From Alphaproteobacteria bacterium (GTDB lineage: Bacteria > Pseudomonadota > Alphaproteobacteria > UBA9219): DNA of 16,047 nt. Position 1 is the stretch's first letter, and the number at the start of each line of letters is the position of its first letter. The notes under the pieces were generated by a model. It ran no database searches. It had not been told where the DNA came from and saw only the letters and a list, made by a program, of their open reading frames with translations. Positions 3,646 to 12,035 of the stretch are shown here, piece by piece. The stretch is taken from contig JAQUPC010000043.1 of assembly GCA_028716765.1 (NCBI GenBank), positions 1-16,047 of the forward strand, read 5' to 3'. The position numbers were made by a program, and so were the translations under genes.

Positions 3646-3808
3646 GAAGGCTTCTGCGCGGTTCGACAGGAGCTAAATCCCCGGGGCCGTTAATGAGACC
3701 CTCCAGGGAGCCGTCCCTGACCGGAGCCGTGGTTCCGGACATATGGCGCCCACCTGCTTAATAGCAGGCCGCGGAGGATCGCTGCCACCGGCCGAGGCGG
3801 GGCCTTCC
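3646..3808 (+). ncRNA. ssrS: 6S RNA candidate, about 163 nt
   Basis: The stretch has the three-part 6S architecture. A closing stem pairs GGAAGGC (3646-3652) with GCCTTCC (3802-3808). An open central region carries a 6-bp hairpin on its 3' side only: CCTGCT at 3753-3758 with AGCAGG at 3763-3768. A long terminal rod pairs 3683-3690 with 3743-3751, then 3695-3700 with 3731-3736, then CTCC with GGAG, and is capped by AGGGA-GCCG-TCCCT at 3705-3718. The length is typical. The hairpin and the GGAGGATCG that follows agree with my recollection of alphaproteobacterial 6S RNAs. 6S RNA binds the housekeeping RNA polymerase holoenzyme by mimicking an open promoter. A different structured RNA cannot be excluded without a covariance search. 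Confidence 0.6.
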
Positions 3809-3959: not shown

Positions 3960-4787
3960 ATGAACCGCTCTTTCTTCAAAATGCACGGCCTCGGCAACGA
4001 CTTTGTGGTCATGGACAGCCGTGCGGACAACTTCGTCCCCGATGAACCGCTGCGCCGCAAGATTGCCGACCGGCACCGCGGCGTAGGCTGCGACCAGCTG
4101 ATCGTGCTGCTTCCCAAGCACGACCCGGACGCCGATCTGTTTATGCGCATCTATAATCCGGACGGCTCCGAGGCGGGCGCTTGCGGCAACGCGACCCGGT
4201 GCGTGGGGCATCTTCTGTTTCAGGAAACGGGCCATTCCAAAGCTATTATTCAAACTATCTCCGGCCTGTTGAAAGTAAGCGCCGAAAAAAGCGGCTCGAT
4301 CGCCGTCGATTTCGGGCCGCCGCATCTCAAGTGGAAGGAAATTCCCCTTGCGCAAGAGGTCGATACGCTTGAGGTGCCGGTCAGCGCCGGCGATCTCGCC
4401 AATCCGTGCTGCGTCGGCATGGGCAATCCTCATGCCGTATTTTTCGTTGAGAACGCCGAGGCCGTGCCGCTCGAAGTCACGGGGCCGAAACTGGAAAAGC
4501 ACGCGATGTTCCCGCGCCGTTGCAACATCGAAGTGGCGCAAATTGTCGACAAACAGCGCATTCGCATGCGCGTGTGGGAACGCGGAGCCGGGATCACGCA
4601 GGCTTGCGGTTCCGGCGCTTGCGCCACGCTCGTCGCCGCCGTCCGGCGGGGACTCTCCGCCCGGCGCGCCGTTATTGTACTCGATGGCGGCGAATTGACC
4701 ATCGAATGGCGCGAAAGCGACGGTCACGTTCTTATGTCAGGCCCGGCAACTTTGGCGTTTCGCGGCACGTTTGCCGAATTGTTCTAG
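3960..4787 (+). CDS. dapF: Diaminopimelate epimerase
   Basis: The 275-aa enzyme interconverts LL- and meso-diaminopimelate in the cytoplasm, supplying lysine and peptidoglycan synthesis. The family signature is complete: KMHGLGNDF at residues 7-15, ACGNATRC with one catalytic Cys at 75, GNPHAV near 155, and ACGSGACA with the second catalytic Cys at 216. I chose the ATG at 3960 because family proteins begin a few residues before KMHGLGNDF. The frame remains open upstream to a TTG at 3894, but that part lies in the palindromic repeat. No clear Shine-Dalgarno precedes 3960. The next gene, 67 bp downstream, is a membrane protein. Confidence 0.96.
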   Translation: MNRSFFKMHGLGNDFVVMDSRADNFVPDEPLRRKIADRHRGVGCDQLIVLLPKHDPDADLFMRIYNPDGSEAGACGNATRCVGHLLFQETGHSKAIIQTISGLLKVSAEKSGSIAVDFGPPHLKWKEIPLAQEVDTLEVPVSAGDLANPCCVGMGNPHAVFFVENAEAVPLEVTGPKLEKHAMFPRRCNIEVAQIVDKQRIRMRVWERGAGITQACGSGACATLVAAVRRGLSARRAVIVLDGGELTIEWRESDGHVLMSGPATLAFRGTFAELF

Positions 4788-4854
4788 TTTTCCCGTTTCT
4801 TAACTTTTTTGCTTTCTTGTGATCCCGGACCGTCCACTTCGAATGAGGAGATCC

Positions 4855-5679
4855 ATGTGCCAACCGATTAAGAGCCTTCCGCAGACGTTTTTTTCCCGTT
4901 CGTTCTATGCGGGCTTGATAACTCAAGGAAAAGGCATCGGCCTTGGGTTCATTCTGCTCCTTGTGCTTTTCAATTATGCGGCTCCGGTACTTCTAAAGGC
5001 TCCTGCTCTCCCGGATGTGAAACAGAGGATCGAGGATTTTTTCAACCGTCTTCCCGGCATGACCATAAAAGGCGGGAAGTTGAGCATGGACAAGCCGTCA
5101 CCCTATACCGTCGATTTCAATTTTGGCGACAAAAGTTCGTTCACGATTCTGTTCGACACCGCCTATCAGGAAAGCGGGATCGCAAAACTTGAAGAGGACA
5201 TGGAAAGCAAGAATACGGATATCCTCGTGACGTCGGATTTCGCCGCCGTGAGGAAAAACCGCCAAGGCGCGAACGTCGAAATTCACAGTTTCGGAAAGTT
5301 CGCCAAACAGCCCATCAACGTCGATCACGGCCAATGGGCAAATATCGGCAAGAAAGCGGCGCAATACTTCCCTTTCCTGTTCGTTATAGCCGTCATTCCC
5401 GTCTTTCTGGCGGTTTTCTTTCTGACGTTCGTGAAATCCCTGATCGTCAAGTTTTTCGCGCTCTTTTTTACGATAAAGCCCGATCTCCCGGCCGCGATGC
5501 GGCTGGCCGCGGCGGCGGCGATGCCCGCCAGCCTCATCAACCTTCTGCTTGTGGTGCTGGCGGCGGTTCTTCAGCAACCGATCCAACGGCTTCCGGGCTT
5601 TTCCGGCTTCCTGATCTGGCTGGCCTTCGCGATTTATGGCTTGTGGAGCGTGAACTCAGCCGCAAAAAATACGAATTGA
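4855..5679 (+). CDS. DUF1189-like membrane protein
   Basis: The product is 274 aa from the ATG at 4855, which has GAGGAG four bases upstream; a GTG at 4819 in the same frame lacks such support. The layout is one membrane segment near residues 28-45 (IGLGFILLLVLFNYAAP), then an extracytoplasmic domain of about 120 residues with predicted beta-structure. Three or four closely spaced membrane segments follow from about residue 172 to the end. This topology and the N-terminal LPQTFFSRSFYAGL with the following Gly-rich helix resemble DUF1189 family proteins, whose function is unknown. It follows dapF by 67 bp and may be co-transcribed. Its last 24 bp overlap the convergent ORF of the fabH-associated insert. 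Confidence 0.75.
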   Translation: MCQPIKSLPQTFFSRSFYAGLITQGKGIGLGFILLLVLFNYAAPVLLKAPALPDVKQRIEDFFNRLPGMTIKGGKLSMDKPSPYTVDFNFGDKSSFTILFDTAYQESGIAKLEEDMESKNTDILVTSDFAAVRKNRQGANVEIHSFGKFAKQPINVDHGQWANIGKKAAQYFPFLFVIAVIPVFLAVFFLTFVKSLIVKFFALFFTIKPDLPAAMRLAAAAAMPASLINLLLVVLAAVLQQPIQRLPGFSGFLIWLAFAIYGLWSVNSAAKNTN

Positions 5680-6513
5680 AACGGGCGCTTTTTTGAAGGC
5701 GGTTTTACTCACCACCGCACCAGCGCGGCGCCCCACGTAAAGCCGCCGCCCATCGCGTCGAGCAGAACAAGCTAACGTCTCTTGTTCCGAATGGCGTTCG
5801 TTCGCATACCACGGAACTTTTGTTTTCAGCCCCATCTGCCGCAGCAGCCAGGTCAGCCCAAGCCCTATGGCATTTCTTTTCTGCGGGTGTCTTTTTACGA
5901 GTGTGAGGGTATGCGTTAATGTTTTCTGCGCGAGAGCAAAATACAGGCGGGACGGCTTAATAACTATTTTTCCACATGCCGCGTCATCTTGCGCATCTTC
6001 AATGCTATCTATCAGGTTGCCAACAATCGCGGCTTCTCGAAGAAACACAGCGAATCTTTTGTTTGCGCCAAGTTCACTGGCCAATGCCAGAATCATATCG
6101 GCGGTGCTTGCCGCTTCTCTCTCTCGTTCTGTTATATACTTTCGCGGATTTCTTGTGGAAGACATCGTTTTGCCGCTGTCAAAAACCTCTTCGGTTTTCT
6201 TGAGGAATTCGAGTTTCTGCGTCTCAGCGGACTCGTCCAGAATAGACTTAAGAACAACGAGCGATTGGTGAACTTCCAGTCTATCATTAATTGCAAGGGT
6301 CTCTTTGCCGCCAAGGTAACGGAGAATGTTTTTCACCGCCCACTCTCGTTGAGGCTTATCCAAAGCGTCCACATACAGGTCAACCCACCCCATGCTTTGC
6401 ATAAGAGAGCAGACAATCTCTTTCGTTTTTTCGTGAAGAGAGGCGAAAAAACCTTGTTCTGCTATATGAATGATGGCGTTGGCGGCACGCGTGTATTGTG
6501 CAATTTCCTGCAT
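5656..6513 (-). CDS. Orphan helical protein of the fabH insert, possible isoprenoid-synthase-like fold; chimeric C-terminus
   Basis: The frame gives 285 aa from the ATG at 6511-6513. Residues 1-247 come from the insert. Residues 248-268 translate the displaced fabH tail in a non-fabH frame, and 269-285 read into ancestral downstream DNA, ending 24 bp inside the convergent DUF1189-like gene. The insert-encoded part is rich in amphipathic helix. DLYVD at 45-49 and NLIDSIEDAQDD at 166-177, followed by a short charged turn and GKIVIKP, recall the two Asp-rich motifs of squalene/phytoene synthases. Spacing is only roughly right and overall similarity is unproven. No membrane segment or signal peptide is seen. 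No good Shine-Dalgarno precedes the ATG. It lies 130 bp behind fabH in the same direction and may be read from the fabH transcript. Confidence 0.6.
   Translation of the reverse strand: MQEIAQYTRAANAIIHIAEQGFFASLHEKTKEIVCSLMQSMGWVDLYVDALDKPQREWAVKNILRYLGGKETLAINDRLEVHQSLVVLKSILDESAETQKLEFLKKTEEVFDSGKTMSSTRNPRKYITEREREAASTADMILALASELGANKRFAVFLREAAIVGNLIDSIEDAQDDAACGKIVIKPSRLYFALAQKTLTHTLTLVKRHPQKRNAIGLGLTWLLRQMGLKTKVPWYANERHSEQETLACSARRDGRRLYVGRRAGAVVSKTAFKKAPVSIRIFCG
5711..5773 (-). repeat. Displaced copy of the fabH 3' end (direct repeat, left)
   Basis: These 63 bp match 6646-6708 at 62 positions. Read on the minus strand they encode the last 20 FabH residues ([10 protein letters not shown]... 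to the final Trp), and a TGA follows that Trp codon directly. The one mismatch (5766 against 6701) changes GTC to GTT, both Val. This is probably the original gene end, separated from fabH by the insert. Confidence 0.92.
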
Positions 6514-6532
6514 ATGAATCGCGAGGTTATAG

Positions 6533-6566
6533 TTTCTCTAAAATTAACCGTGAGCTTTCTCTAAAA
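6533..6566. repeat. Pair of 11-bp direct repeats upstream of the insert gene
   Basis: TTTCTCTAAAA occurs at 6533-6543 and again at 6556-6566, 23 bp apart, about two helical turns on the same face of DNA. The pair lies 20-55 bp upstream of the start at 6513, within the AT-rich right end of the insert. It could be a regulator or recombinase arm-type site; there is no direct support for either. Confidence 0.4.
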
Positions 6567-6643
6567 AAATCTTCTATACTATCGTCCATATCATGGAAAT
6601 CATGAAAGTAATTCAACAGAATATGGTTAACTTTGTAACGTAG

Positions 6644-7618
6644 CTACCACCGCACCAGCGCGGCGCCCCACGTAAAGCCGCCGCCCATCGCGTCGAGCAG
6701 GACAAGCTGGCCGCGCTTGATGCGTCCGTCGGCCACGGCCACGCTGAGCGCCAGCGGCACCGAGGCCGCCGAGGTGTTGGCATGCTCGGCCATCGTCTTC
6801 ACGACGCGCTCCGGCGGCAAATGAAGCCTCTTGGCAATGCCGTCGATGATGCGCTGGTTCGCCTGATGCGGCACGAGCCAATCGATGGCTCCTTGTGGCA
6901 GGTTGTTGGCCGCGAGCGTCTCGTCCACGACTTCGGCAAGGCGGAGAACGGCATGGCGGTAAACCTCGCCGCCTTTCATGCGCATATGGCCCGTCGTCGC
7001 TGTGCTCCCCGGCCCGCCGTCGACGTAAAGCGTGTCGTAGTGGCTGCCGTCGGCGTGCAGATGCGTGGACAGTATGCCGCGATCCGACGTATCGCCCTTG
7101 CCTTCCGCCGCCTGCAAAACGACGGCGCCCGCGCCGTCGCCGAACAAAACGCAAGTCGTGCGGTCGGTCCAGTCGATAAGACGGGAAAGCGTTTCCGCCC
7201 CGATGACTAAAACCGTATTGACCTGCCCGAGCCGGATAAAATTGTCGGCAACCGCCATCGCATACACAAAGCCGGAACAAACCGCCTGCACATCAAAAGC
7301 AAAACCCCGCGTAATGCCGAGCCGCGCCTGAACGCGCGCAGCGGTGGCGGGAAACGTGTTGTCGGGCGTCGTCGTCGCCACGATGACGGCGTCGATCGCC
7401 CCCGCCTCAAGACCCGCGTCGGCCAGCGCCTTTTGCGCCGCCTGCACCGCGAGATCGGACGTCTTTTCGTTTTCGCCCGCGATATGGCGTTGCTTGATGC
7501 CGGTGCGCTGAACGATCCATTCGTCGGACGTCTCGACGCGCTTCGCCAACTCATCGTTCGTGACGATGCGTTCGGGCAGATAGCCGCCGCAGCCGAGAAT
7601 AACGGAACGGCGGATCAT
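6644..7618 (-). CDS. fabH: Beta-ketoacyl-ACP synthase III
   Basis: The 324-aa cytoplasmic enzyme condenses a short acyl-CoA, usually acetyl-CoA, with malonyl-ACP to start fatty acid synthesis. The Cys-His-Asn triad is present: C114 in [11 protein letters not shown]251 in VPHQANQR and N281 in EHANTSAAS. The C-terminal [14 protein letters not shown] is the conserved family ending. The ATG overlaps the plsX stop by four bases (ATGA), so the two are translationally coupled. The last 20 codons are duplicated at 5711-5773, beyond an insert, which suggests this gene end is an integration site. Alphaproteobacteria often have ihfA after fabH; here it is absent. Confidence 0.98.
6646..6708 (-). repeat. 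fabH 3' end copy joined to the gene (direct repeat, right)
   Basis: This is the partner of the repeat at 5711-5773 and forms the last 20 codons of the intact fabH. The repeat stops one base into the stop codon: the stop here is TAG, while the other copy has TGA, so homology ends exactly at the gene end. Confidence 0.92.
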
Positions 7619-10119: not shown

Positions 10120-10572
10120 ATGTCCACATCGGCTCCACGTCTTATCCTGCTTGCCGGAAGCCTGGTTCTGCTTCTTTCCGCCTGCGCGCCGACGATGCGC
10201 AACCGCGGCAATTTGCTCGAGCCCGAGAAACTTGCCGAGATCAAACCGGGCGAAAGCACGCGCGAAAACTGTGCCAACAAGCTGGGATCCCCCACGGAAG
10301 TCAGCACGTTCGACGAAAACGTATGGTATTACTTCGGCCGCCGCACCGAACAGTATTCGTTCCTCGATCCGGAAGTGATCGAACAGAAAGCCGTCGAAAT
10401 CCGCTTCAACGATCAGGGCGTGGTGACGGCGGTAAACAACCTCGATCCGTCCCAATGCCAGGAAGTCTCGCCCGTGGCGCGCAGCACGCCCACCTACGGC
10501 CACGACTTGACGTTTATCGAACAGCTGGTAGGCAACCTCGGTTCGACGTCGAAAGCCGCAAAGAAGAAATAG
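10120..10572 (+). CDS. bamE: Outer membrane assembly lipoprotein BamE (SmpA/OmlA)
   Basis: From the ATG at 10120 the 150-aa product begins with a lipoprotein signal peptide: a polar N-terminus, LILLAGSLVLLLSAC with lipobox Cys at 21. The mature protein carries the SmpA/OmlA domain: an IKPGESTRENCANKLGSP block (family pattern of a Gly-x-Ser/Thr turn then Lys-Leu-Gly-x-Pro) and VWYYFGRRTEQ, then a beta-strand ending in VVTAVNNLD. BamE is a BAM complex subunit on the periplasmic side of the outer membrane. A TTG at 10045 would put 25 extra residues before the signal peptide and is unlikely. The ribosome binding site is poor: AAGGG is about 15 bases away. It is divergent from yceD. The 3' end overlaps the convergent phosphatase gene by 59 bp. 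Confidence 0.9.
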   Translation: MSTSAPRLILLAGSLVLLLSACAPTMRNRGNLLEPEKLAEIKPGESTRENCANKLGSPTEVSTFDENVWYYFGRRTEQYSFLDPEVIEQKAVEIRFNDQGVVTAVNNLDPSQCQEVSPVARSTPTYGHDLTFIEQLVGNLGSTSKAAKKK

Positions 10573-11290
10573 GCTCCGCGGGCGCGTTCGCCGCAACGGT
10601 TCCCGCCAACGCCAGAAAATCGGACAATGTGTTTACCGTGACATCCACGTAGGAACCCATATTGGGATAGCGCGCGGGATTGACGATGCGCCCATGCGTC
10701 AGAAGTGCGGTAGCGCCCAAAACCTTCCTGGCGGAAACCAGATTTTCTGCGGTGTCTTCCACCATACACGTTAATTCAGGCGGCCAGCCAAGCAGCGCTA
10801 GCGCCTTAAGGTAGGCCTTTTCCGTTATCTTCAGATTGAAGCCGACCTTTTCGATCGAAATAATCCGGTTCTGCGGAATGACGCCTTCCAGCCCCCATGC
10901 CTTCAAGGATTTATTAATCCAGGGTTCGCTGCTGTGGGACAAAACAGCCAGCGGCACGGGGCTTGCGAGCAATTGCCCGCGCGTGACATCGCAGGGGCCG
11001 TTCAGGCTGAAATCGATGCCCTCGTGGTAAATATCGTTGAAGGCTTCGATGCTGATGCCGTACTTGTGCCAAAAAACGCAGAAACAGGAGCTGCACTTTT
11101 TATGGGAAAGCCTTGCCTCCGCCAGCGCCTCTTCTTTCGTCAAAGGCGCGCCGAGCCGTAAAACCGTGTCGGCAAGGACATCGAGGCAATGCTCGCTGAA
11201 CTGCGGCGTGATCTCGCCGAAGGTCCCATCCAGATCGAGTAAGGCATACTTGATATTATTGAGGGGCGCCGGGCCCGTTAAGTTTTTCAT
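10514..11290 (-). CDS. HAD-superfamily hydrolase, pyrimidine 5'-nucleotidase-like (paralogue 1)
   Basis: The 258-aa product has the HAD motifs: DLDGT at 19-23 (nucleophile Asp and acid/base Asp), LSHS as motif II, a Lys after GFNL as motif III, and MVEDTAENL as motif IV. The cap between motifs I and II is helical and contains several Cys (KKCSSCFC). The layout resembles the pyrimidine 5'-nucleotidase branch of HAD-IA, but the substrate cannot be read from sequence. The ATG at 11288-11290 has GGGATGAG directly before it and lies one base after the TGA of the next gene, with which it shares fold and many aligned motifs. The last 20 or so codons overlap bamE on the opposite strand. Confidence 0.85.
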   Translation of the reverse strand: MKNLTGPAPLNNIKYALLDLDGTFGEITPQFSEHCLDVLADTVLRLGAPLTKEEALAEARLSHKKCSSCFCVFWHKYGISIEAFNDIYHEGIDFSLNGPCDVTRGQLLASPVPLAVLSHSSEPWINKSLKAWGLEGVIPQNRIISIEKVGFNLKITEKAYLKALALLGWPPELTCMVEDTAENLVSARKVLGATALLTHGRIVNPARYPNMGSYVDVTVNTLSDFLALAGTVAANAPAEPISSLRLSTSNRGCLPAVR

Positions 11291-11291
11291 C

Positions 11292-12035
11292 TCATCCCGC
11301 CGCCATTCCATAATCGGGGCGCGCACCAGGCTCTCTCACGCGCGCAGGAAGAGCCATGACCAGCGCCTTCATGAACACGGCAAGGTCGTCGCAAACGTAA
11401 TCGACATAGTCATGAGCGGCCGGATCAAATGCGCGGCCATGCGTGATATGAACGGTCTTCATGCCAAAGTTCTTGGCCGGAATAAGGTTCAAGAGGGAAT
11501 CCTCAACCATCGCGGTTTGGCCGGCCAGAAACCCGGTTTTGTCGAGTACGATGCGGTAGGGCTCTTCGCTTTGCGATTTGAAATTGAAGCCGACGTCCTC
11601 AAGCCCGAACACGCGTTCCGGCGGAATGATTCCGTCCATGCCGAACCTTTTAATCGCCGAATTGACCCAGCCGCGGTTGCTGTGCGACAATACCGCGAGG
11701 GGAAGCGGGCACGCGCGCAGTCCCGCCACCGTCAAGGGATCGACGTGGACATAGTCCTGTTCCAGCCGTTGGTGATACAAGTCGTGCCAAAGCGAAGTTG
11801 AAAATTTGTACTCTTTCTGGAAAACGGCGAAACTGGAGCCGAAGTCTTTATACGATTGTTCCGCTCTGACCATCGCCTCGCCCCGCGTCATCGAGACGCC
11901 GAATTGCCCGCAAAGCGTCAGCGCCGTCTCGACGGCCACTTCATGGCAATGGCGCTCGAACTCTTCGGTGAAGCGGTAAATCGTGCCGTCAAAGTCGAGC
12001 AAAACAAGTTTCAGATCCTGAACCGCTTTTTCCAC
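11292..12035 (-). CDS. HAD-superfamily hydrolase, pyrimidine 5'-nucleotidase-like (paralogue 2)
   Basis: The 247-aa product is the clearer of the two paralogues. DFDGT at 14-18 is motif I, LAVLSHSNRGW is motif II, GFNFK holds the motif III Lys, and MVEDSLLNLIPAKNFGMKTV is motif IV with the typical HAD-IA continuation. The cap includes YKDFGSSFAVFQKEYKF, like the tyrosine-rich loop of pyrimidine 5'-nucleotidases. It is intracellular, with no signal peptide. It follows the amidohydrolase gene by 21 bp and leads into paralogue 1 after a single base, so the three are probably one transcript. The pair appears to come from an old tandem duplication. Confidence 0.88.
   Translation of the reverse strand: MEKAVQDLKLVLLDFDGTIYRFTEEFERHCHEVAVETALTLCGQFGVSMTRGEAMVRAEQSYKDFGSSFAVFQKEYKFSTSLWHDLYHQRLEQDYVHVDPLTVAGLRACPLPLAVLSHSNRGWVNSAIKRFGMDGIIPPERVFGLEDVGFNFKSQSEEPYRIVLDKTGFLAGQTAMVEDSLLNLIPAKNFGMKTVHITHGRAFDPAAHDYVDYVCDDLAVFMKALVMALPARVREPGARPDYGMAAG

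Follow-up and report, generated by a model that had tools for sequence, protein, structure and literature searches.

A short foreign insert between two copies of the fabH 3' end in an alphaproteobacterial contig

We found that the final 20 codons of fabH are present in two copies in direct orientation in the window (the whole 16,047-nt stretch of alphaproteobacterial DNA that was analysed), on either side of a piece of foreign DNA that carries one nearly complete gene (Table 1). The insertion looks real, recent and foreign; it is ordinary in kind and unusual in its target, fabH, and in its cargo. The reading that we tentatively prefer is that of a decayed remnant of an attachment-site (Campbell) type insertion at fabH.

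Table 1. Features around the 3' end of fabH in the window
Feature	Position	Strand	Basis
DUF1189 gene, convergent neighbour of fabH (ORF start possibly 4819)	4855..5679	+	PF06691, 1.9e-15
Cargo ORF, 285 aa, ATG at 6513; continues across copy 1 in a frame other than that of fabH and stops inside the end of DUF1189	5656..6513	-	ORF list; four relatives
Repeat copy 1, the displaced tail of fabH, closed by TGA (5709-5711); adjoins the ancestral neighbour DUF1189	5711..5773	-	Repeat comparison; position as fabH end in G016/L114
Foreign insert, 872 bp, 45.4% GC	5774..6645		Composition
Conserved cargo core, residues 1-235; DxxxD at 45-49 and 169-173	5809..6513	-	Five-protein alignment and motif positions
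Interval from fabH stop to cargo start, 130 bp	6514..6643	-	Sequence
fabH (beta-ketoacyl-ACP synthase III), intact, stop TAG	6644..7618	-	PF08541 4e-36, PF08545 9e-33; ORF 324 aa
Repeat copy 2, tail of functional fabH	6646..6708	-	Repeat comparison

The two tail copies agree at 62 of 63 bases, and their starts are 935 bp apart. The sole mismatch, GTC against GTT, encodes Val in both cases and is the eighth base from the inner edge, so that the strictly identical block is 55 bp long. No exact direct repeat in the window is longer, and since 200 simulated windows (first-order Markov) yielded none above 17 bp, the repeat is not due to chance. Past the inner edge, 9 of 16 bases still match, giving a 79-bp match at 90%, while no further likeness between the flanks was found beyond those 16 bases. 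On the outer side, copy 1 follows the fabH frame up to the last Trp codon and is then closed by TGA, whereas the functional fabH ends with TAG, and no likeness was detected past the T common to both stop codons. The repeat therefore ends with the last sense codon of fabH; the stop codons after it differ and the DNA behind them is unrelated, which shows that two different sequences stand behind one common gene end. An earlier note on this DNA had described the 63-bp duplication with its one synonymous mismatch, the different stops directly after the last Trp and the end of the likeness at the gene end, and on all these points our results agree with it. No imperfect inverted repeat beyond chance was found in the fabH tail (50 of 300 shuffles were equally good). 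We also observed an exact inverted 11-mer match between positions 5761-5771, in copy 1 and including its base that differs from fabH, and positions 6453-6463, in the conserved AEQG codons of the cargo; this length was reached in 5 of 1000 shuffles of the insert, and the match is possibly a product of chance.

The DNA between the copies, noted earlier as about 870 bp of AT-richer sequence, has a GC content of 45.4% compared with 57.6% in the remaining window. The third-position GC of its ORF is 0.49, while values of 0.63-0.81 were obtained for the 13 other window genes, and its codon score is -0.18 as compared with 0.12 to 0.45 in the same genes. By GC content and codon use, the 872-bp insert is foreign DNA. 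It had also been claimed that the element lacks a recombinase of its own, and indeed neither the ORF list nor Pfam revealed one within the insert, which contains one foreign gene only. A consensus scan of the 130 bp that separate the fabH stop from the start of the cargo found no sigma-70-like site, and no Rfam match up to E 5 was obtained inside the insert. Comparison of the DNA from 5600-6800 with plasmid records gave 19 matches, located in the fabH part and the tail (7 annotated as ketoacyl-ACP synthase III and 12 without annotation), and comparison with phage records gave 13 matches, each over 24-27 bases only.

Several other identities were considered and rejected. An integron gene cassette was discarded because GTTRRRY/RYYYAAC core sites are present at neither edge, a single RYYYAAC being located at 6611; a tRNA as target, because there is no tRNA in the window; a transposon, because terminal inverted repeats were not found; and a phage or plasmid origin, because no relative of the cargo was detected in phage, plasmid or IMG/VR collections. 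Elsewhere in the window, a 6S RNA (RF00013) was identified on the plus strand at 3648-3807 (64.2 bits, gathering score 46.4), and two overlapping HAD-type hydrolase-like ORFs, recognized by eye in the ORF list, occupy 10514-12035 on the minus strand and are perhaps tandem paralogues.

The nearest relatives by fabH belong to an order with 33 genomes, 1.1-3.1 Mb in size, and reach 79% protein identity at best; the surroundings of fabH were compared in 20 relatives of that order. The sequence behind fabH differs among these 20. One of them, genome G016, which is another species, presents the order of an empty site (locus L114): a DUF1189 gene with 33% identity to that of the window is convergent with fabH, 14 bp separate both stop codons, and there is one fabH end, as the earlier note had anticipated for relatives with an empty site. 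The other 19 have different neighbours or too little DNA. From the arrangement in G016, copy 1 occupies the position of the ancestral fabH end and the body of fabH has been separated from it; copy 1 is the displaced old end and copy 2 the rebuilt one. As either copy matches the 20 relatives at no more than 53 of 63 positions and the copies match each other at 62, the duplication is young or was derived from a very close strain. In addition, L114 carries at 4319-5145 a 55-bp direct repeat (94.5%), its copies 772 bp apart around a 134-aa ORF; this repeat is intergenic, lies ahead of a tsaD-like gene and belongs to the same genome that shows the empty fabH site.

The position of copy 1 also bears on whether the duplication might be an assembly artefact. 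Strain variants in a metagenome contig may have been collapsed or joined into a chimera; as a variant, there may be a collapsed tandem of the 935-bp unit. The cargo protein is known in the protein collection from one contig, which would suit such an error, but a fabH tail is present at both insert edges, the copies differ in one base and in their stops, and copy 1 is at the ancestral place; we regard an artefact as very unlikely.

According to the preferred reading, foreign DNA would have inserted into the final 20 codons of the chromosomal fabH, bringing a copy of them with its own stop, so that fabH would have stayed whole while the old tail was displaced by 935 bp. An integrative element with the fabH tail in its attP would have integrated by the Campbell type of insertion, and most of it, recombinase included, would have been lost afterwards by a deletion that reached from within the cargo gene to the border of the displaced tail, leaving one nearly complete gene; we infer both the larger element and the deletion. 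Given the similarity of 62 of 63 bases to the host tail, compared with at most 53 of 63 in the 20 relatives, the element would have to have taken its tail copy from this strain or one very close to it. Support for such a remnant comes from the edge of the repeat at the last sense codon, with two stops and unrelated DNA after it, from the location of copy 1 where fabH ends in G016, from the foreign GC content and codon use of the insert, and from the frequency of tyrosine recombinases in the order, where they are present in at least 31 of the 33 genomes. It is weakened by the lack of a recombinase in the insert, by the failure of fabH to recur as a target, by the absence of an inverted repeat beyond chance in the tail, by the close origin that the tail copy would need, and by the need for both the loss of the recombinase and a precisely placed deletion.

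A rebuilt target gene together with a displaced fragment is the signature described for tDNA islands (PMC4383910), which also argues for a remnant, and SGI1 integrates at the 3' end of trmE (PMC8409611). Both these islands and the fabH insert have foreign DNA between a complete target and a displaced 3' copy in direct orientation. The insert differs from them in its length of only 872 bp, its lack of a recombinase, its target, its cargo cut at one edge, and a site at which nothing similar was seen in the other genomes examined. Thus, the proposal in the earlier note of an integrative element at the fabH 3' end stands with regard to the foreign DNA, the rebuilt tail and the empty-site order in G016, whereas its tyrosine-recombinase drive finds no support, given that none is present, the cargo is cut and the site does not recur.

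A one-off capture, combining homologous exchange in fabH with illegitimate joining (HFIR), is nearly as good an explanation as the remnant, and we still consider it rather unlikely. In such an event, DNA of a close strain with the cargo behind its fabH would have recombined in fabH, and illegitimate joining would have attached its other end to the recipient fabH at a point 63 bp short of the gene end, cutting the cargo gene; no recombinase would be necessary and the length of the repeat would be arbitrary. This would explain the boundary at the gene end and the two stops, as two alleles sharing only fabH, would account for the single synonymous mismatch, and would explain the cut cargo gene and the absent recombinase at once; the variation of the sequence after fabH among the 20 relatives is also in its favour. 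HFIR can insert longer foreign stretches. The process has been documented in competent bacteria, where segments of 3-10 bp are described (PMC6382021), and like our case it would leave two junctions, one within homologous DNA and the other at an arbitrary place where a gene is cut. In the present case, however, neither the donor nor the recombination event has been seen, and there is no sign here of natural competence; the donor required would be nearly identical in fabH but would have another neighbour. In our judgement, attachment-site integration has a higher prior than one-sided capture, but it requires that a recombinase was lost and that a deletion took place.

The use of fabH as a target elsewhere was evaluated in 99 fabH loci, which include some genomes twice and some with little downstream DNA. 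Extra copies of the tail were present only in the two loci covering genome G001, as a short tandem array, a weak match of 29 of 40 in L036 having been left out of this count. When 385 genomes of the class were searched with a codon pattern for the end of FabH, 69 matched, and G001 alone had more than one match; the 316 genomes with no match are uninformative. With a slightly longer pattern, there was no match in any IMG/VR contig. In G001 (L128 7859-8247; L063 belongs to the same genome), a 98-bp unit that includes approximately the last 43 bases of fabH is repeated in four tandem copies behind the gene, and there is no other matching place in this genome. A scan of 130 loci (1.24 Mb) for direct repeats of at least 38 bp and 85% identity, 60-4000 bp apart, returned one each in L021, L036, L042, L043 and L114, plus the G001 array. 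The literature searched yielded no report of fabH as an integration site and no paper on integrase-less elements. The earlier note did not know fabH as a common site; in the 99 loci and the 69 pattern-matching genomes, the G001 array aside, fabH did not recur as a target and no second occupied fabH was found.

The G001 array is relevant to a local repair duplication, in which a staggered break across the fabH end would have been filled in and stray DNA ligated between the ends, the 63 bp representing a target-site duplication of accidental length. This would yield nearly identical copies with no donor strain, and G001 provides a fabH tail duplicated without a recombinase, though in tandem and with no foreign DNA. 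We nevertheless find it improbable, since it would take luck for the boundary to fall on the last sense codon with a new stop from the insert directly behind it.

Among the matches listed, no integrase was found on a fabH contig, and a weaker match is present in genome G025 (L113 8699-10024), where a tyrosine integrase gene (PF00589, E 1e-15) lies ~1.2 kb downstream of fabH with its 3' end overlapping tRNA-Pro. The one integrase found near a fabH is thus located at tRNA-Pro.

The cargo protein has four relatives (P0002-P0005) among 5.8 billion proteins and, as judged from these searches, is an orphan family of five known members with no sequence relatives. After the conserved core, 11 codons remain here to the end of the insert, compared with 20-30 residues in the four relatives. 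As the cargo frame leaves the insert and continues through copy 1, the insert does not contain the cargo's own stop; the gene is cut at the junction though nearly complete, which counts against a tidy, complete element. The cargo was not found in the 33 genomes of the order in a search run without a positive control.

Structural modelling points to class I terpene/prenyl synthases, and the protein probably has a predicted terpenoid-synthase fold, from which we infer the identity of the enzyme; the model that includes the out-of-frame tail has a pLDDT of 37.5. The DxxxD motif at residues 45-49 is present in four of the five members (N replaces the first D in P0004) and that at 169-173 in all five, positions that presumably suit the class I isoprenoid synthase superfamily. 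The family differs from class I isoprenoid synthases such as MoeN5, dehydrosqualene synthase and terpene cyclases in having no sequence match to them, and P0004 deviates in the first motif. The best Pfam match had an E value of 0.005, for one of four members and to an unrelated domain; no Pfam match to squalene/phytoene synthase (PF00494) was obtained, and hhalign against PF00494 (14 members) gave a probability of 0.3%, with 4 of 20 column-shuffled controls scoring higher. Among viral fold models, uncharacterised proteins of Pithovirus and Cedratvirus come closest (TM 0.71 and 0.68, 12-13% identity). One member has a PHROG match of unknown function (E 0.0023), and one of the five has a match to PtuA (PADLOC, E 0.001); a defence protein as cargo was rejected.

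These features of the cargo also bear on an intact minute satellite, which would be complete but non-autonomous, with a recombinase encoded elsewhere in the genome moving it in trans. The flanking repeats and the rebuilt target are compatible with it, and a gene running into an attachment site has a parallel in the G025 integrase. However, the insert lacks a stop belonging to the cargo, no second occupied fabH was found in the 99 loci or the 69 pattern-matching genomes, and the order genomes lack the cargo in the uncontrolled search, so that we consider a satellite highly improbable. It is just as improbable that the fabH 3' end serves as the attachment site of such a trans-moved element, whose sole gene, for a new terpenoid-synthase-like protein, would have its C-terminus supplied by the tail of the host gene wherever it lands; a C-terminus of this origin would also explain the strong differences between the tails of the five family members. 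Of the two possibilities raised in the earlier note, a satellite or a remnant, the remnant is the most likely, rather than a living element, while the satellite is possible but not the likeliest.

The insert offers a clean, small case of foreign DNA at the end of an essential-type gene that remains unbroken. The cargo may matter more than the insertion, as it belongs to a five-member family without sequence relatives and with a predicted terpenoid-synthase fold; if active, it would represent, on the basis of the models, a new branch of isoprenoid enzymes.
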